From Bacteroidota bacterium (GTDB lineage Bacteria > Bacteroidota > Bacteroidia > Chitinophagales > UBA10324), in NCBI GenBank assembly GCA_014190575.1, contig BJGQ01000025.1, forward strand, positions 1 to 47,429: DNA of 47,429 bases. Reading direction: 5' to 3'. The stretch's first letter is position 1, and each line of letters opens with the position of its first letter. The position numbers and the translations under genes were made by a program. The notes under the pieces are model-generated. The model was not told where the DNA came from, searched no databases, and worked only from the letters and a program-made list of their open reading frames with translations. Of the stretch, positions 35,752 to 47,429 are shown piece by piece.

Positions 35752-37527
35752 TTAATTCTTCTCGCCTGATTTCATCATCTCCCAAATATATTTTACGGGT
35801 ACACTTCCATAACTAAGAAATTTTTCATTAAAATTCTTCAGTGAAAAATCTGCACCCAATTGTTTTTTCTGGTCTTCGCGTAGAGCATATATTTCTGTAT
35901 ATCCTGTAAAGTAGCAGCATAATTGTGTTTGAGTAAGTGTTGCTCTTCGCCATTTTCCTTCAGCTTCTGATGCGGTTTGAAAACCTTCTTGTGTCAAAAG
36001 TTTAACGGCATCTTCTTTACTCATATTCAAACATTGAATACTGTAATCAAGTATTGTATTGAGTGTGGAGCGTAAATGCCATTTGTAATACATGAGCCAC
36101 ATTTCCGGTTCGTTGTTTCCGTATCCTTCTTCCAGCATCATACGCTCGCCATACACAGCCCAACCTTCAATCATTCCATTATTCTGAAAAACAGATTTAA
36201 TTATGTCATCCACTTTGTTTGAGTATACCAACTGCGCATAATGTCCAGGCAATGCTTCGTGAATATTTAATATCTGCAAAATCCAGTTGTTGTATTCTCG
36301 CAAATAGCTTTCCGCTTCATCAGGCGTGTATCCATCAAGAGGAGTTACATTGTAAAATGTTTTTGCATTTTTATCATATGGGCCCGGTGCGTTAATACTT
36401 GCTCCTGCGCCACCACCGCGCATGTACATTGGTGTTTCACGAACTTCTAAAGGTTTGCTATCGTCAAGAGTTATTAAATTTTTTTGCTTAATGAATGCTT
36501 CCAATTGAGGAATTTGTTTTTTAATGGTTGCAATAAATGAATCAGGTGCGCAATGTTGGTGACTCAATGTATCGATCATCATTTTCACAGCTGTTAAGCC
36601 TTCAGGCATTGAGGCAGAACCAAAATATTTTGGCCATAATTTTTTTGTTATGGCATTCATTTCAGTATGTATTTCAGTTTTATGATCCTTAGCTTTCTGA
36701 AAAATTTCATCCACTGAAAAACAGCTCTGCATTTCAAAACGGAATTTCTTTTCGTACAAAACTTTACCTAAGCGGAATGAACTGGTTGCAGTTGAATCTT
36801 TATTAATTGTTTTCTGAACTTCAGTTAAATACTGAATGTATTCCTTCATACTCGAAAGAGCTTGTGCCAAATGCCCTTTCAATTCAGTTTTTTCTTCATT
36901 GCTTAGCTTACTTGCGTTCAAGCTATCCGGAATATTTTTTTCAAATATTTCAAGCGAACCTTTGTTCTGCAAAATTCCCAATTCAGTATGTTCCTTGGTT
37001 GGCTTATGCATGTTTGCTTTAGCTACTATGTAATATTCAGGAACATATTTTAACCGTTCGCTAATAACCAATAATCTTTTTTCCAATGAAACTTTTGAAT
37101 TTCCCAGAATCAAATCAAAGCCCTCTCCCACATTGTATTCAGCAGGATTCCACTCAAAACTTTTTAATTCATAGCAACTCCAATTGTATTCTTCCAGATA
37201 ATTCATCATGATTCGTGCATCAATTGAATTTTCAGGAGTAATTTTTTTCCAGTCATATTTTTTTAAACTATCTGAAAGCGATTTATAAACATCTAACTTC
37301 CGTATCCTGTTTTCTTTCGAAGGAATTTCTAAGCGCTCATCGTATTCGTGATTACCAAGTGCTAAAGCCCAATCAGGATTATTTTTCCAAATAGATTCGG
37401 TAAACAATTTTTTAAATTGTTCAAACGATTCATTCTGAGCATATGCATTTTTTGTTCGGTTGCACGAAAAAAAGAAAAGAGATACTATCATTAAAACAAG
37501 AGCTGTAAAATGTAAATTTTTTTGCAT
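35752..37527 (-). CDS. DUF885 family lipoprotein (putative zinc metallopeptidase)
   Basis: 591 residues. The N-terminus is a lipoprotein signal, hydrophobic core then SLFFFSCNRTKN with the lipidated Cys. The family's motif H423EALPGH429Y is seen in LQILNIHEALPGHYAQLVY, and a downstream GWAVYGERMMLEEGYG, as in DUF885 proteins which resemble gluzincin peptidases. Also typical are YMRGGGAGASINAPGPYD and the closing FSLKNFNEKFLSYGSVPV. It should be a membrane-anchored peptidase in the periplasm or on the outer surface; substrates are not known. Its start is ATG 37527, with no strong promoter in sight. It converges on rpsA. Confidence 0.9.
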   Translation of the reverse strand: MQKNLHFTALVLMIVSLFFFSCNRTKNAYAQNESFEQFKKLFTESIWKNNPDWALALGNHEYDERLEIPSKENRIRKLDVYKSLSDSLKKYDWKKITPENSIDARIMMNYLEEYNWSCYELKSFEWNPAEYNVGEGFDLILGNSKVSLEKRLLVISERLKYVPEYYIVAKANMHKPTKEHTELGILQNKGSLEIFEKNIPDSLNASKLSNEEKTELKGHLAQALSSMKEYIQYLTEVQKTINKDSTATSSFRLGKVLYEKKFRFEMQSCFSVDEIFQKAKDHKTEIHTEMNAITKKLWPKYFGSASMPEGLTAVKMMIDTLSHQHCAPDSFIATIKKQIPQLEAFIKQKNLITLDDSKPLEVRETPMYMRGGGAGASINAPGPYDKNAKTFYNVTPLDGYTPDEAESYLREYNNWILQILNIHEALPGHYAQLVYSNKVDDIIKSVFQNNGMIEGWAVYGERMMLEEGYGNNEPEMWLMYYKWHLRSTLNTILDYSIQCLNMSKEDAVKLLTQEGFQTASEAEGKWRRATLTQTQLCCYFTGYTEIYALREDQKKQLGADFSLKNFNEKFLSYGSVPVKYIWEMMKSGEKN

Positions 37528-37614
37528 GCATTAATTATTTATGAAAACCACGGAAATAAGTCAAGGGTAAATCAACACGACCTTTTTGGTGAATAAGAAA
37601 CTTTTTTTACACCA

Positions 37615-37643
37615 TTGATTGTTGAATTACATAATTATTTTTA
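37615..37643 (+). promoter_or_regulatory. Candidate promoter of the 37661 gene
   Basis: TTG (37615-37617), 18 bases, TATTTTTA (37636-37643), one base from consensus, 17 bases before ATG 37661. Both lie upstream of the signal peptide start, which rules out the TTG frame start at 37619. Confidence 0.5.
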
Positions 37644-37660
37644 GCGCTGCAATAATTTCA

Positions 37661-38443
37661 ATGAAATTAAAATTTCTTATTTTTTTTATTTTACTTACAA
37701 TTTCGCTAACAACTATTGGTCAAAATATTTATTTGAGCAATGGAATTATTGAAAATGGAAAATATAAAGACAACAATAATCATTTAATCAATATTGAAAA
37801 TTATTCCGGGTACAACAAAGTTATTTTCAGTTCAAATTCAGCAACCATTCAAAATCCTGTTTTAGTTGTTTCAAAAAAAAGTGATTCATTATTTATTCCT
37901 ATAAAATGGTTGAAATTTGACAAGAAAGCTTCAGGCGTTGACTATCATTCCGATATAATTTGGGATAATGACGGCGATTATAAGCTTTCAGTTATTGATG
38001 GTAAGAGAGAATTAATCAGTGATTATTATACAGTAAATGTCAATGAAGATGATGAGTTCTCAATTTCAAATTCTTCCGATGATGATCAAAAATATAATGA
38101 TCCGAACAACACTTTTTATTACATTGATTCCAAGGTTGAATTTTATGAATCACTGAGTGAAAAGAACGAACCGGTTAATATAAGTTCTGAGTTTCCAACA
38201 GGCAAAGTGACCATATATGTATCAAACACAAAACCTATAATTACAACGGAATTAAAAGTTTCAATATATAAATTAAAAGGAAAAAGTAATCAAGATTTAA
38301 TTGAAGAAAAATATTTTCCTATCAATTCGGGTGATATGAATGTATCTTTTAATTATTATTTCGGTACTAAAGGTTCTTTTCTGGTAAGTGTGTATGCAAA
38401 CGAAGATGTTTGGGTAAACGATGGAAACATAAAAATTAAATAA
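37661..38443 (+). CDS. Secreted protein with one copy of an unclassified repeat module
   Basis: 260 residues from ATG 37661: signal peptide MKLKFLIFFILLTISLTTIG (cleavage after GQ), about 120 residues of beta-rich sequence, then a C-terminal module (from about 139) beginning DPNNTFYYIDSKVEFYESLS and ending EDVWVNDGNIKIK. The same module occurs twice in the next gene. The earlier part (GDYKLSVIDGKRELISDYYT, after a VIFSSNSATIQ strand) could be a worn copy of it. No catalytic motif or sorting domain is visible. The next gene begins 34 bases downstream on the same strand, so they are likely co-expressed. I do not recognise the module. Confidence 0.78.
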   Translation: MKLKFLIFFILLTISLTTIGQNIYLSNGIIENGKYKDNNNHLINIENYSGYNKVIFSSNSATIQNPVLVVSKKSDSLFIPIKWLKFDKKASGVDYHSDIIWDNDGDYKLSVIDGKRELISDYYTVNVNEDDEFSISNSSDDDQKYNDPNNTFYYIDSKVEFYESLSEKNEPVNISSEFPTGKVTIYVSNTKPIITTELKVSIYKLKGKSNQDLIEEKYFPINSGDMNVSFNYYFGTKGSFLVSVYANEDVWVNDGNIKIK

Positions 38444-38477
38444 CTAATTAATTAATCATAAAACAATTTTTACCCGA

Positions 38478-39941
38478 ATGAAACGCTCCCTACTACTCCT
38501 TTTGGTGCTTTTTTCCGGCTTAAATTCATTTGCCCAACTTGACCTTACAACACTAATTGACAAATGTTCGCCGGCCATTTTTAAAATAACCACTTATGAT
38601 GCATCAGGTAATGAATATGCCGTAGGTACGGGATTTTTTATAAGTGCATCCGGAACCGGACTTTCAAATTATCATGTCTTTCAAGGCGCTTCAAAAGCAA
38701 AAATTAAAACTTCAGATAACAAAACATATTTAGTTGAAAATGTTTTGGGCTGGAGTAAGGAAAGCGATTTATTCAAATTCACAGTTAAAAATGAGTTAAA
38801 CGAAACTTTTCCATATTTAAAAATGAACGCAGTTTCACCCAAACAAGGAGAAAAGATATTTATAATCGGAAACCCTCTTGGCTTGGAAAAGTCAGTTGCT
38901 GATGGAATTGTTTCTTCTGTTCGTGCAGATGATAAAATGGGTGAAACCATTCAAATCACCGCACCGATTTCTCATGGTAATAGCGGAAGTCCTTTAATGA
39001 ATATGAATGGCGAAGCGCTCGGTGTAGTCACCTATTATTTAGAAAACGGGCAGAACCTGAATTTTGCAGTTAGTGTAAAGAACCTGAATATACTTGACCC
39101 TATTAATGCCTATAAATTCCCTGTTGAAGATGGGCAGGAAAATGTTGTTTCATATAATAATTCAAACAACAACTCAAATACAACAACTACTACTACTTCA
39201 TCTGATATTTATTCTGGTTCAAAAGTTACCTTCTGCGAAAGTGTTGATGATGCCGGCAATCCGGTAACCGTTGCTTCAGTTTTTAATATTGAAAGTGGTG
39301 GTGGAAATGTTACGGTATATGTCGACAATGGAAGCACACAAATGCAAACAACCGGATTAATAGTTGACATTTATAAAAAAGGGAGTTCAGACAAGTATGA
39401 TCAGTTTATTGAAACTAAAAATTTCACCATTAAATCAACATTGGTGGCTACCTATTTTGATTACTTTTTTGCCAGCGCCGGAGACTATGTTGTTCATGTT
39501 TACAATAGCGAAGAAAAATGGATTAACGATGGATATATAACCATCAAAAACAAGAGTGGCTTAAATATAGATTACAATGATCCGAGTAGTACCTTTTATT
39601 ACATTGATGCAAAAGTGAATTTTTGTACTGAATTAGATAACTTAAACAGTTGCTCAAATTCAGGAGATGAATTCAATATCAGTAAAAGCGGAAGCTATGT
39701 ATATGTTAGGGTTGGTCAGGATAAAGCTTTGAAAACAAGTGGAATTACACTCGACATTTATAAAAAGAAAGGTGGTGATTATGATGATTTTGTAGAAACA
39801 AAAACATATACCATTAATCCCGACAAGAGTGCTTTTTATATTGAATACACTTTTTATAATGCGGGAGATTATAAGTTTAAATTTTATTCTGATAGCAGTG
39901 TTTGGATTCAGGATGGCACAGTTACTATTAAATACAAATAG
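38478..39941 (+). CDS. Secreted trypsin-like serine protease with two C-terminal repeat modules
   Basis: 487 residues: signal peptide MKRSLLLLLVLFSGLNSFAQ, then an HtrA-like S1 protease domain (about 24-205) with catalytic His66 (SNYHVF), Asp97 (KESDLFKF) and Ser169 (SHGNSGSPL). A linker of Ser/Asn/Thr (SYNNSNNNSNTTTTTT) follows, then two modules: about 243-355 (SKVTFCESVDDAGNPV to WINDGYITIK) and about 363-487 (DPSSTFYYIDAKVNFC to WIQDGTVTIKYK). The second opens like the module in the preceding gene. No PDZ domain is seen. It is probably a periplasmic or surface protease whose modules bind a partner; the preceding gene's product is the obvious candidate, which is inference. Confidence 0.88.
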   Translation: MKRSLLLLLVLFSGLNSFAQLDLTTLIDKCSPAIFKITTYDASGNEYAVGTGFFISASGTGLSNYHVFQGASKAKIKTSDNKTYLVENVLGWSKESDLFKFTVKNELNETFPYLKMNAVSPKQGEKIFIIGNPLGLEKSVADGIVSSVRADDKMGETIQITAPISHGNSGSPLMNMNGEALGVVTYYLENGQNLNFAVSVKNLNILDPINAYKFPVEDGQENVVSYNNSNNNSNTTTTTTSSDIYSGSKVTFCESVDDAGNPVTVASVFNIESGGGNVTVYVDNGSTQMQTTGLIVDIYKKGSSDKYDQFIETKNFTIKSTLVATYFDYFFASAGDYVVHVYNSEEKWINDGYITIKNKSGLNIDYNDPSSTFYYIDAKVNFCTELDNLNSCSNSGDEFNISKSGSYVYVRVGQDKALKTSGITLDIYKKKGGDYDDFVETKTYTINPDKSAFYIEYTFYNAGDYKFKFYSDSSVWIQDGTVTIKYK

Positions 39942-39958
39942 ATTGTATTGTTGAATTT

Positions 39959-40447
39959 ATGCTTGCTGAATATCAAAAGGTAATTGATTCTGCAATACTG
40001 AAAAAAGCAGAAACAAAAAAACTTTTTGAAAGACTAAAAAAACAAAAACCTAAAGACCTTGATCGTGTAACAAACGAGTTGCACGATCAGGCATTTGTAC
40101 ATATTGATTGTTTGCAATGTGGAAATTGTTGCCGCACTACCGGGCCATTATTAAAGAATAAAGATATTGAACGGCTGGCCTCTCACTTTAAATTAAAACC
40201 TTCCATTTTCACCGAGAAATATTTGCGTATTGATGAGGATGGTGACTTTGTTTTTAAAGAAATGCCTTGCCCGTTTTTAGGGTCAGATAATTATTGTTCG
40301 GTGTATGAATCAAAACCAAACGCATGCGCAAACTATCCGCATACACAACAGCGCGATCAACTTAAGAAATTAAAAATTACCTATCATAACAGCATGATTT
40401 GTCCAGCAGTTGCTGAAGTGGTAAAAGGGTTAAAAAAAATTTATTAG
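39959..40447 (+). CDS. YkgJ family cysteine-cluster protein
   Basis: 162 residues. The N-terminal half has a helix rich in Lys, then the cluster CLQCGNCCRTTGPLL (C51, C54, C57, C58), followed by CPFLGSDNYCSVYESKP and NACANYPHT, ending with MICPAV. These are the YkgJ/CxxCxxCC pattern cysteines that are thought to bind zinc or an Fe-S cluster. The family's role is uncertain; it is often annotated as a putative zinc- or iron-chelating protein. There is no signal peptide. It begins 17 bases after the protease stop, so it may be the third gene of that unit or only nearby. Confidence 0.9.
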   Translation: MLAEYQKVIDSAILKKAETKKLFERLKKQKPKDLDRVTNELHDQAFVHIDCLQCGNCCRTTGPLLKNKDIERLASHFKLKPSIFTEKYLRIDEDGDFVFKEMPCPFLGSDNYCSVYESKPNACANYPHTQQRDQLKKLKITYHNSMICPAVAEVVKGLKKIY

Positions 40448-43679: not shown

Positions 43680-46600
43680 TTACCTGATTAGTGTTACATC
43701 TCCCTTCTTTATATTAATTGTTCCATCATATCGGGTTATTTCAATTTCATAAACATAGACTCCAATATTCAAATTCACATTGTGATAAATGCCATTCCAT
43801 TCTGGTGAAACAGAATTCTCCTCATATAATTTTTCACCCCAGCGATCAAATATCCGCATGTGAATGGATGTAATTCCGGTTCCATAAACTTTAAATACAT
43901 CGTTCTTATCATCATCATTCGGTGTAAAAGAGTTTGGAATAAATACATCACCATCAGCTAACAAAATAAATGGCCCATAAGAAATCGTATCTGCACAGCC
44001 GTTATTATTGAAAGCAAAAAGTGTTACATAAAAATCCCCTTCAGTTGTATAAGTGTAAACAGGATTTATTTCATTAGAATGATTTCCATCGCCAAAACTC
44101 CATAAATAAGTGGAAGCAAAAACAGATTGATTGGTGAATTGAAATTGAGCGAGAGAAAGCAAAGTAGTTTCATTTATCCAAGGAGCTGAAGTAAAATCAG
44201 CAACCGGTGTTTCAAAAATTGAAACTGTATCAATAGCTAAAGTATCAGTACAACCGGTTGCACTTGTTGCAATTAAAACTACTGGAAACTCTCCAACTTG
44301 ATTGTACTGATGCGTTGGCGAAGTTGAATTAGATGTTGAGCCATCACCAAAAAACCAATTGTATGTTGCTCCATTTGTACTTGTGTTTGTAAATAAAACC
44401 GACAATGGAATACATCCCTTTTTCCCAGAAATATTTGCGCTCATTACCGGATAGGTGGATGCTATGACATCAGTATTTATAGAAACAGAACATCCAATGG
44501 CATCTGTCACTGTAACACTATAATTTCCACCCGCGAGTAATGCCACATCTTCAGTAAGCGAGCCATTGCTCCATAAATAATTATATTGAGCCGTTCCGCC
44601 ATTCACTGTCAGGTCAATAACGCCATCATTATTTCCACATGAAGTTGCAGTTGGATTTATTGCTAATTGCGGTCCTGCTATATTATTCACCAAAATATTT
44701 AATGCTGTAGTACATGTAACATTATCAGTAACAGTAACAGAATAATTACCTGATAAAATATTTGTTAAATCTTCACTTACAGAATTATTACTCCACAAAT
44801 AAGTATAAGGTGAAAGACCACCTGAAGCGGTGATATCAATTCCGCCATTTGCATTTCCACAGGTAGTTGAAGTAAGTGAATCACTTAGCTGCGGTGCCGA
44901 ACTTCCATTAATTATTATTCCTGAAAGAGCTGCCGTACATCCTCCCGCGTCAGTAGTTGTTACACTAAAAGTATTTGCTGCAAGGTTTTGTAAATCTTGA
45001 GTGAAGGCATTATTACTCCAGATATAACTCAATGGAGCAGCCCCGCCAATTACAGTTAAGTCAATGCTTCCGTTATTCAAACCACATGAGGTGGAAAAAT
45101 GTGATTCATTCAACTGTGGTCCTGTTATGTTATTTAATAAAATATTTTGAGAAGCACTACAACCATTTGCATCGGTAACTGTTACTGAATAATTTCCGGC
45201 AGAAAGGTTTGATAAATCTTCGGTGATAGCAACATTGCTCCAATTAAAATTATAAGGCTGCATCCCATTGCTGATTGTTAGATCAATGCTTCCGTTCGCC
45301 TGATTGCAATTTTCATCGGAGTGAATTTGATTGATAACAGGTCCTGAAGTATTCAATATTTGCACAGATAATGTAACAGAACAATTATTTATATCGGTAA
45401 CAGTAACTATATAATTGCCGGAAGAAACTGAAGCTAAATCCTGTGTGATACCATTGTTATTCCACAAATAAGAAATTGGTGCGGCACCGCCACTAACCGA
45501 CAAATTAACTGACCCGTTTGCATTGCTACATGTTTCATCAATATGCGTTTCAGAAAGTTGTGGTGATGGATGATTATTAATTACAACTGATGCTACTGCC
45601 GAACATCCACCTGCATCAGTAACTGTTACATCATAAGTTGCAGCGGTCAATAAAAAAATATCTTCAGTGATTGCTGCATTACTCCAGTTAAAAATATATG
45701 GTGCCATTCCGGCATTCACACTTAAATCAATACTTCCATTTGCACTACCACATGTTTCATCAACAGATGTAAAAGTTAAAGGAAGAGTTCCTCCGCCATT
45801 AATAATGCTGATTGAAATGGTTGCTGAGCAATTATTAATGTCGGTAACTGTTACATCATAAATTCCAACTCCAAGTGAAGATAAATCCTGAGTGATTGCT
45901 GCATTGTTCCAACTATAATTGTAAGGGAATGTTCCACCACTGACAGTTAAATCAATTGTTCCATTTGAATTTCCGCATGAAGCATCAACATGAGTTTCAC
46001 TTATTTGAATTGCACTTGGTTGAGTAACACTTGCATTTCCTGTTAAAGTACAATTGTTTGCATCTGTAACCGTAACAGAATAATTTCCAACTGAAAGATT
46101 ATTAATATCTTGAGTAATGGCCGCATTGCTCCATAAATAAGTGTAAGGTTGAGTTCCGCCTGTTACAGTTAAATCAATTGCGCCGTTTGTGTTTCCATTG
46201 CATAAAATATTAGTTGTTGCAAATTGTGTTGTTGCTCCTGAAGTGCCAATGACTACAATATTTAATAAGGCAGTACACGAATTAAAATCAGAAACTGTAA
46301 CAGAATAATTTCCAGAAGAAATTCCAGATAAATTTTGCGTCAAAGCATTATTACTCCATAAAAAAGTATATGGAACATATCCGCCCACAACTGTTAAACT
46401 AATGCTTCCATTTGATTGCCCGCAGGTTTCGTTAACATGTGTCTGACTTAGTGTTAACTGTGCATGCTCCGTAACATTAACGGTTACACCAGCAGTACAA
46501 CCAGTAAAGTCAGTGACAGTTACAAAATAATTACCACCACCTATGCCTGACAAATCTTGAGTATTAGCATTATTATTCCAATGATAAATGTATGGAGCAG

Positions 46601-47429
46601 TTCCTCCATTAACAGTTAAATCAATTGCACCATCATTAAATCCGAAGCATGAGACATCTGTTATTATAGTTTGTAATACAACTGCACTTCCATTGGTAAT
46701 ATTTACTGACAGTGTGCTGGAGCAATTATTTAAATCAGTTACAGTAACTGAATAACTCCCTCCGGTTAAAAACACCAAATCCTGAAAAGTTGAAGCATTA
46801 CTCCAGATATATGTATATGGATTTTGCCCACCAACAACTGTAAGATTTATAGAGCCATTTGAATTACCGCAAGTGGAATTCACATGAGATTCACTCAAAA
46901 TTGGTCCATTTCCATTTTGAATATTTATTGTTAATTCATTTGTGCAATTATTAAAATCAGTAACTGTTACTGTGTATGCTCCAGCCGAAATATTTGTAAT
47001 GTCTTCTGATATTGCTGCATTGCTCCAAACAAATGTGTAAGGTGATGTTCCACCAACCACTGAAAGATTTATACTTCCATTAGCTGTTCCGCAACTTGCA
47101 TCAACATGTGTTTCACTTAACGCAATTGCTGTTGGTTCAGTAATAGTTATTGAAAGTGTTGATTGGCAATTGTTGAAGTCAGTTACGGTCACTGTATAAT
47201 TTCCTGCAATCAGATTTTGCGGGTCTTGTATAATGGAAGCATTATTCCAGATGTAATTATATGGTGATGTTCCTCCTACAACTGTGAGATTTATACTTCC
47301 GGTGTTATTTCCAAAACATAAAACATCAACATGTGTCGATGATAATATTGGTCCGCTTGTATTGCTGATGTTTACCGGTAATGTGCTTGTACAATTATTA
47401 AAATCAGTAACTGTTACTGTGTATGCTCC
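43680..47429 (-). CDS. Giant SprB-repeat adhesin-like protein with T9SS type B sorting domain (N-terminus beyond the edge)
   Basis: The frame is open from TAA 43680 to the right edge, 1249 residues, and runs on past the window. The body is a tandem of about 13 SprB repeats of some 75 residues, for example CGNSNGTIDLTVSGGTFPYN then YSWNNAAITQDLSSLGVG and YDVTVTDINNCSATISISI. They are followed by two PKD domains (YNWFFGDGSTSNSTSPTHQY; LWSFGDGNHSNEINPVYTY). The C-terminus is a type B sorting domain (VFIPNSFTPNDDDKNDVF, IFDRWGEKLYEE, GVYVYEIEI). SprB-like proteins act as surface adhesins, often for gliding. The GTG at 47192 is an internal codon, not the start. Confidence 0.94.
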   Translation of the reverse strand, partial: GAYTVTVTDFNNCTSTLPVNISNTSGPILSSTHVDVLCFGNNTGSINLTVVGGTSPYNYIWNNASIIQDPQNLIAGNYTVTVTDFNNCQSTLSITITEPTAIALSETHVDASCGTANGSINLSVVGGTSPYTFVWSNAAISEDITNISAGAYTVTVTDFNNCTNELTINIQNGNGPILSESHVNSTCGNSNGSINLTVVGGQNPYTYIWSNASTFQDLVFLTGGSYSVTVTDLNNCSSTLSVNITNGSAVVLQTIITDVSCFGFNDGAIDLTVNGGTAPYIYHWNNNANTQDLSGIGGGNYFVTVTDFTGCTAGVTVNVTEHAQLTLSQTHVNETCGQSNGSISLTVVGGYVPYTFLWSNNALTQNLSGISSGNYSVTVSDFNSCTALLNIVVIGTSGATTQFATTNILCNGNTNGAIDLTVTGGTQPYTYLWSNAAITQDINNLSVGNYSVTVTDANNCTLTGNASVTQPSAIQISETHVDASCGNSNGTIDLTVSGGTFPYNYSWNNAAITQDLSSLGVGIYDVTVTDINNCSATISISIINGGGTLPLTFTSVDETCGSANGSIDLSVNAGMAPYIFNWSNAAITEDIFLLTAATYDVTVTDAGGCSAVASVVINNHPSPQLSETHIDETCSNANGSVNLSVSGGAAPISYLWNNNGITQDLASVSSGNYIVTVTDINNCSVTLSVQILNTSGPVINQIHSDENCNQANGSIDLTISNGMQPYNFNWSNVAITEDLSNLSAGNYSVTVTDANGCSASQNILLNNITGPQLNESHFSTSCGLNNGSIDLTVIGGAAPLSYIWSNNAFTQDLQNLAANTFSVTTTDAGGCTAALSGIIINGSSAPQLSDSLTSTTCGNANGGIDITASGGLSPYTYLWSNNSVSEDLTNILSGNYSVTVTDNVTCTTALNILVNNIAGPQLAINPTATSCGNNDGVIDLTVNGGTAQYNYLWSNGSLTEDVALLAGGNYSVTVTDAIGCSVSINTDVIASTYPVMSANISGKKGCIPLSVLFTNTSTNGATYNWFFGDGSTSNSTSPTHQYNQVGEFPVVLIATSATGCTDTLAIDTVSIFETPVADFTSAPWINETTLLSLAQFQFTNQSVFASTYLWSFGDGNHSNEINPVYTYTTEGDFYVTLFAFNNNGCADTISYGPFILLADGDVFIPNSFTPNDDDKNDVFKVYGTGITSIHMRIFDRWGEKLYEENSVSPEWNGIYHNVNLNIGVYVYEIEITRYDGTINIKKGDVTLIR
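44450..47429 (-). repeat. Tandem array of SprB-repeat units, about 225-240 bp each
   Basis: Thirteen complete units plus the start of another lie in this span, each encoding a CG.(S/A)NGSIDLTV-type start, a YLWSN-type centre and a YSVTVTD.N.C end. DNA copies have diverged, so they are recognisable mainly in protein. Runs like this may be collapsed or mis-joined in short-read assemblies, and the left boundary is set by the last unit before the PKD domains. Confidence 0.85.

Follow-up and report, generated by a model that had tools for sequence, protein, structure and literature searches.

A module of secreted and envelope proteins in Bacteroidota, found free and as the C-terminal tail of unlike enzymes, with a tentative docking role

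Two neighbouring genes of a Bacteroidota bacterium, one for a trypsin-fold protease (P2) and the other for a protein with no enzyme domain (P1), carry copies of the same repeat module, which raises the question of what this module is and whether the two proteins work as a pair. Both genes lie on contig BJGQ01000025.1 of assembly GCA_014190575.1, of which we analysed one whole stretch of 47,429 nucleotides, referred to here as the window. The host genome is 3.2 Mb and 98% complete, and those of its relatives that bear names are Chitinophagaceae bacteria.

P1 and P2 share the plus strand, with 34 bases between them (Table 1). The start of P1 was placed at the ATG at 37661, its open frame extending upstream as far as a TTG at 37619; orthologues were present in four other loci (L034, L035, L036 and L045). 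The N-termini of both proteins, judged by eye, possess a hydrophobic signal-like stretch ending in AQ or GQ, and both are presumably exported. Pfam and NCBIfam scans returned no match to P1, whilst in P2 a catalytic triad of H66, D97 and S169 was assigned by motif, and an alignment showed the H/D/S motifs to be kept in all eight family genomes that have the protein. The sequence TAnnTTTG is part of the bacteroidete promoter, it does not occur on the plus strand of 37001-39999. The CxxCxxCC-domain gene, 17 bases downstream of P2, is found beside it in six of six genomes of the window's genus and is absent from the stretches read in two other genera, we regard it as a genus-conserved neighbour and as a candidate member of the system only.

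Table 1. Features of the P1/P2 locus, given in positions of the window.
Feature	Position	Strand	Description
P1	37661..38443	+	260 aa, presumably secreted, two modules, enzyme domain absent
P1 N-type module (fourth, worn copy)	37709..38050	+	weak in the window, clear in L045
P1 C-type module	38093..38440	+	profile E 1.1e-56
P2	38478..39941	+	487 aa: signal-like stretch, trypsin-fold protease, Asn/Thr/Ser-rich linker, two C-type modules
P2 Trypsin_2 domain	38625..39026	+	residues 50-183, PF13365 E 8.1e-22
P2 tail, first module	39198..39554	+	E 1.1e-55; modelled, pLDDT about 80
P2 tail, second module	39573..39938	+	E 4.5e-62; modelled, pLDDT about 80-90
CxxCxxCC-domain protein	39959..40447	+	PF03692

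The initial annotation of the locus had proposed three copies of an unnamed module in the two adjacent genes, together with a possible fourth, worn copy in P1. The module is approximately 120 residues in length, with three clear copies in P1 and P2, and the worn copy at the N-terminus of P1. The P1 C-module and both P2 modules align over their full length with 23 invariant columns, and each pair among the three scored 25-27 standard deviations above 1000 shuffles, no shuffle scoring as high, so that the three copies are borne out by alignment and shuffle scores alike. The strings from which they had been recognised (DPxxTFYYIDxKV, IYK and WxxDG) are present in the alignment, except that the middle copy is without the DPxxTF start. 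The fourth copy is doubtful from the window alone, where profile searches gave E-values of 0.083, 0.26 and, in a smaller search, 0.026, and where it stood out from shuffles in one of three comparisons, yet it becomes clear through the L045 orthologue from another genus (E 6.9e-8) and through the grouping of N-modules in the tree described below.

As had also been suspected, the module appears to be undescribed in the libraries that we searched. Scans of 30 module members against Pfam gave scattered weak matches, including YDG and Ig, with no family present in more than three members at E-values up to 1; the best was Crystall_2 (E 0.00029, two members), and PKD reached E 0.0079 in three. Comparison with the Pfam gathering cut-offs rests on those members with bit scores, namely the first of the 30 and then 10 of the 30 that were rescanned, and in these 10 no match was at cut-off (Crystall_2 21.0 vs. 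25 bits, DUF2914 17.4 vs. 23.6 bits). The module parts were without a match in NCBIfam, and sequence searches of the PDB produced no significant chain (best E-values 0.12 and 0.093), a known domain is thereby ruled out as far as these three resources reach. Nothing on the module or its enzyme fusions was found in those parts of the open-access literature that were available to us.

To the module we assign a predicted Ig-like beta-sandwich fold, from AlphaFold2 models of P1 and P2 that were built on shallow alignments (9 and 11 rows). In the P2 tail, pLDDT was mostly 80-90 with a weaker joint between the modules, and in the P1 N-module it was about 80, whilst the P1 C-module was less well modelled and the protease part of P2, with its 11 alignment rows, poorly so. 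Those modules that were well modelled are all-beta, with about nine strands, and resemble Ig-like sandwiches. Many Ig-like chains match these predicted models at Z 8-11. In Foldseek the first ranks went to RbmA, NCX1 and antibody chains, all with low TM-scores, a general Ig-like resemblance. Such scores would indicate the class of fold, neither kinship nor function.

Two of the fold matches deserve comparison. The top match of the P1 N-module was 6oe6, a one-domain uncharacterised protein of Leptospira (Z 10.9, rmsd 2.6, 104 aligned, 12% identity), which also tied with others for first place against the P2 tail (Z 10.0, rmsd 2.6, 105 aligned). The sequence profile of the module did not find 6oe6, and the accessible parts of the open-access literature yielded no paper joining this structure with Leptospira. 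The predicted fold may also be like that of the MG2-like domains of alpha-2-macroglobulins, TEPs and complement, for example the P1 N-module matched 4lnv_A with Z 9.4 and rmsd 2.2 over 87 aligned residues. When the two-module tail of P2 was compared with two domains of 4lnv_A (Z 10.0, rmsd 9.5, 187 aligned), or, more generally, with macroglobulin and complement domain pairs (Z 8.4-10.2, rmsd about 9-14 over two domains), only single domains matched. Unlike the macroglobulins, to which they have no sequence match, the module proteins are far shorter.

Conservation was assessed in 216 distinct copies (E < 1e-5, >80 model positions), reduced to 130 non-redundant copies at 70% identity. One Gly is invariant (130/130), a Tyr or Phe follows two positions after it in every copy, and the Cys of an FCE motif near the start of the module is present in 95 of the 130. 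Part of this conservation may reflect the fold. As P1 of the window contains no Cys, the FCE Cys must be dispensable for some roles of the module. In families f55 and f67 some free modules (for example L128:7174-7566 and L121:7559-8005) possess two further Cys beyond that of the FCE motif, perhaps forming a disulfide.

The module is a domain of secreted and envelope proteins that is widespread in the phylum, occurring either on its own or at the C-terminal end of enzymes. A three-row profile matched 22 of 60 genomes, and a 30-row profile matched 70 of 396 genomes from the order, 44 of 395 from the class, 37 of 395 from the phylum and all 16 from the family, in samples which overlap and counts which include the window's own genome. 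In another order of the phylum, searched with a profile suited to it, the module was present in 44 of 44 genomes. Most matches are free proteins in which a signal-like stretch is followed by a single module, at about 130-190 aa in total, or by two, at about 250-350 aa, and among the matches listed, most free-module genes come from genomes in which no enzyme bears the module. A single family, f37, provided 21 of the 37 phylum matches, in frames of 251-292 aa with the module occurring twice in 20 of the 21, and a named relative of the two-module type was found in Melioribacteraceae (L039). A pattern scan of named genomes gave six loci, all near copies but one, and in a plasmid protein search the best 10 of 703 records showed matches confined to the protease part.

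Several minor occurrences accompany this distribution. The window's own genome encodes one more free, single-module secreted gene of 135 aa (G000:C2:178937-179269, equivalent to L040:8932-9339, minus strand), and single-module genes with frames of 137-168 aa are present in G001 to G005 and in G010. The only copy in another genome of the family is broken by five stops (G011:C12:86876-87211), and a single stop lies inside the matched stretch in G130:C4:260825-261196 and G456:C6:65300-65641, among others. Weak matches in long frames probably reflect chance resemblance of the Ig-like kind and were not counted, namely those in G273 (1164 aa, E 0.00071), G696, G042, G1063 and G946 and in a 1754-residue frame of G922.

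Three enzyme fusions were detected, and the module is C-terminal in every one. The P2-type, S1C-like protease with two modules is present in 8 of the 16 family genomes, across three genera, in frames of 485-527 aa. A different Trypsin_2 protease of 590-596 aa, also with two modules, occurs in two families other than the window's (G850, G922 and G974, with a fourth in G883 that is cut by the contig start). The two fused proteases are barely alike, their best local match extending over 28 residues (E 0.003), and placing all 11 fused protease rows in a single clade costs 48.6 log-likelihood units in a 19-row tree, so that one clade for both kinds was rejected (AU p 0.00012); L177 and L183 have long branches in this tree, from which L178 was dropped for an internal stop and L196 for truncation at the contig start. 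The third enzyme is a Ser/Thr kinase in which a hydrophobic stretch is followed by one module, found in at least 3 of the 44 genomes of its order, those among the matches listed (G233, G806 and G807) all belonging to one genus. In related bacteria, two kinds of protease and a kinase have each acquired the module on their own. Profile searches showed that fusion to S1 proteases recurs across several genera, whereas the idea of a module tied to proteases has to be abandoned, given that most matches are free proteins and one of the enzymes is a kinase.

Beside or near the second type of fused protease we observed paralogues with a quite different C-terminal half (L193:4122-5816 and L194:2780-4564), which by eye give the impression of an outer-membrane beta-barrel; these tails had no match in Pfam or NCBIfam, and that of L193 none in the PDB. 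Tails in this line of proteases seem to be exchangeable.

The enzymes themselves are of known kinds; what appears to be new is the module, as far as the libraries searched can tell, and the way in which it substitutes for PDZ or PASTA. HtrA and DegP proteases form trimers or higher oligomers with regulated activity, and the PDZ domains of HtrA, like the PASTA repeats of Stk kinases, serve in allosteric regulation of the enzyme. P2 is like HtrA and DegP in its trypsin-fold domain with H/D/S motifs, placed after a signal-like stretch and with further modules behind, but differs in having two Ig-like modules and no PDZ, for which Pfam gave no match in P2 at E-values up to 1. Eleven NCBIfam models matched P2, none at cut-off (TIGR02037, 94.6 vs. 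416.2 bits). A relationship with the anti-phage RT-Protease_XI models of PADLOC was rejected, as P2 covers only their protease end (337-501 of 506 and 339-505 of 510). PASTA repeats are the usual C-terminal part of Ser/Thr kinases such as Stk1 and PknB, with which the fused kinases share an N-terminal Ser/Thr kinase, a hydrophobic stretch and a C-terminal part beyond it, although in G233, G806 and G807 that part is one copy of the module instead of PASTA, which was not detected at E-values up to 0.001 in G233 and up to 0.01 in G806 and G807. Against NF033483, the G233 kinase scored 314 bits (cut-off 450).

The initial annotation had further suggested that the protease and its neighbour form a matched pair. 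P1 precedes P2, with a gap of 31-34 bases, in five of the eight genomes with P2 (G000, G002, G003, G004 and G010), and is absent beside the protease in the other three (G001, G005 and G007), it is therefore not obligatory. A 45-residue P1-like stretch before the protease in G001 (E 0.009, 47% identity) is a probable remnant of a lost P1, and in G004, on a short contig, the N-terminal part of P1 is missing from the listed frame. In the window's genus the pair is flanked by DUF885 and CxxCxxCC genes, neither of which was found in the stretch read in G010, where the pair is kept. The proposed pairing thus recurs in a second genus with other flanks, but P1 is absent beside the protease in three of the eight genomes. 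Pairwise dN was lower than dS for both genes wherever dS was computable, and the dN of P1 was three to five times that of P2 (0.253 vs. 0.059 between the window and L034, where the dS of P1 was 1.3; dS is near saturation).

The history of the two proteins was addressed with a tree of 58 module copies, taken from the window and 25 of 204 loci, in which P1 N-modules come from the window and L045 only. The P1 N-module groups with seven of the eight N-modules of free two-module proteins (support 97/87), the eighth (L047) falling among the C-modules. The P1 C-modules fall in a single clade (99/94). Its union with the second modules of P2 is supported at 94/86, slightly under the strict threshold, and the grouping that includes the two modules of G007 at 93/83. 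The first modules of P2 also fall inside the C-type clade (96/92), P2 thus has C-type copies only. The two modules of G007 are closest to one another (98/92), which may be a sign of repeated copying. Since P1 groups with plain two-module proteins in this tree, it apparently never had a protease; it seems to be an ordinary two-module protein. It had been left open whether one member of the pair had lost its protease domain or never had it: the second alternative fits the tree, and a partner that lost its protease was rejected, the N- and C-modules of P1 both being of the ordinary free two-module type.

For each of the three enzyme fusions, at least one genome has a free-module gene beside or near the enzyme gene. 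In G883 a one-module gene lies 27 bases downstream of the second type of fused protease, no free-module neighbour being present in the stretches read in G850, G922 and G974. In three of three genomes the kinase shares its cluster with one or two module genes, at a distance of about 3.7-4.2 kb, and this cluster also contains nadC, a polysaccharide-flippase-family protein, NamZ and PGA_cap. Across 13 loci of the kinase order (10 chosen from places with module matches plus the 3 kinase loci, among 44 genomes), module genes adjoin the polysaccharide-flippase-family gene in all 13, with nadC on the opposite side in 12, the thirteenth locus meeting a contig end on that side. The order seen in L119, L200, L201 and L205-L214 is nadC, one to three module genes and the polysaccharide flippase, followed in some by NamZ and PGA_cap. 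The two-module gene of f37 (L122-L127) is adjacent to trkA- and trkH-like genes in six of six loci, on the same strand in five, and to an rmlA-like gene in four of six; these names derive from a scan of one locus and from the similarity of the others to it. In L039 the module gene directly precedes a gene that by eye resembles a nucleotidyltransferase. Seven loci of the window's class, also read by eye, had mixed neighbours and no envelope theme.

We tentatively favour, at somewhat less than even confidence, a docking or adaptor role, in which the module is an envelope module that places or switches an enzyme, and the free protein is an adaptor or competitor. The strongest argument for docking or sensing is that unlike enzymes have separately taken up the same C-terminal tail. 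The module would bind a target in the envelope, which could be a glycan or a protein of the surface or periplasm. P2 would be an exported HtrA-like protease whose two modules replace PDZ, either guiding it to its target or activating it. P1, probably co-transcribed with P2, would offer the same C-type module and a different N-type module without an enzyme, and would most likely bridge to, or compete for, the target of the P2 tail, setting the site or extent of proteolysis; direct contact between P1 and P2 modules would be one possible route among others. The adjacency of P1, the grouping of its C-module with those of P2, the low dN relative to dS and the envelope-type neighbours in one order all argue for docking, whilst the mixed neighbours in the window's class, fold matches that name no ligand and the many purposes of Ig-like folds argue against it. 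The weak point of this reading is P1, which three of the eight genomes lack beside the protease and whose contact with P2 is hypothetical. That free module proteins pair with module-bearing enzymes, by contact or through a shared ligand, and aim or switch them as ligands or adaptors within a common signalling or targeting scheme of the envelope, is in itself unlikely; if it were true, the N-type module of P1 would supply the type missing from the two C-type modules of P2. Having been taken up by unlike proteases and a kinase, the module likely binds something general in the envelope, and it provides a handle on a large set of nameless secreted proteins in Bacteroidota and relatives. The identity of its target would account for many nameless proteins of 130-290 residues, and for the aiming of a protease without PDZ.

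The alternatives to docking draw on much of the same evidence. The modules may be passive Ig-like spacers or surface-exposure domains, and the pair the product of local copying, reflecting history rather than joint work; the loss of P1 from genomes that keep the protease, and the many free modules that have no conserved enzyme partner among the matches listed, are both in line with this, yet residues are conserved across the family (though part of this may be fold), unlike enzymes have captured the module repeatedly, and the pair has outlived a change of flanks between two genera, and we consider passive spacers somewhat unlikely. Rather doubtful is the idea of P1 as a pseudo-substrate or inhibitor, in effect a detached P2 tail that keeps the protease blocked and is removed on a signal. 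The tight gene order, with its gap of 31-34 bases in five genomes, the faster evolution of P1 and the grouping of its C-module with the P2 modules would all suit an inhibitor, however, free two-module proteins are widespread in genomes with no fused protease listed, and the protease persists with no adjacent P1 in G001, G005 and G007.

The module could also be a ligand-sensing domain exerting allosteric control over the enzyme, with P1 as a periplasmic carrier of the same ligand. It occupies the usual place of PDZ in the protease and of PASTA in the kinase, and the presence of NamZ and PGA_cap near the kinase is a hint of sugars from the wall or capsule; the linker of P2, however, is long and of low complexity, fitting tethering better than tight coupling, and we hold such sensing to be improbable. 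Least credible of all, and very improbable, is that the last module is a sorting signal for type IX secretion, as its C-terminal position, its predicted beta-sandwich and the presence of a type B sorting-domain protein in the window might suggest: neither TIGR04183 nor TIGR04131 matched P1 or P2 at E-values up to 1, although the same library found TIGR04131 in the window's 43680 protein as a positive control, and the module is also present on a kinase whose catalytic part precedes the hydrophobic stretch. The control protein (43680-47429, minus strand) is long and built of repeats, carries the type B sorting domain of type IX secretion and runs off the end of the window.
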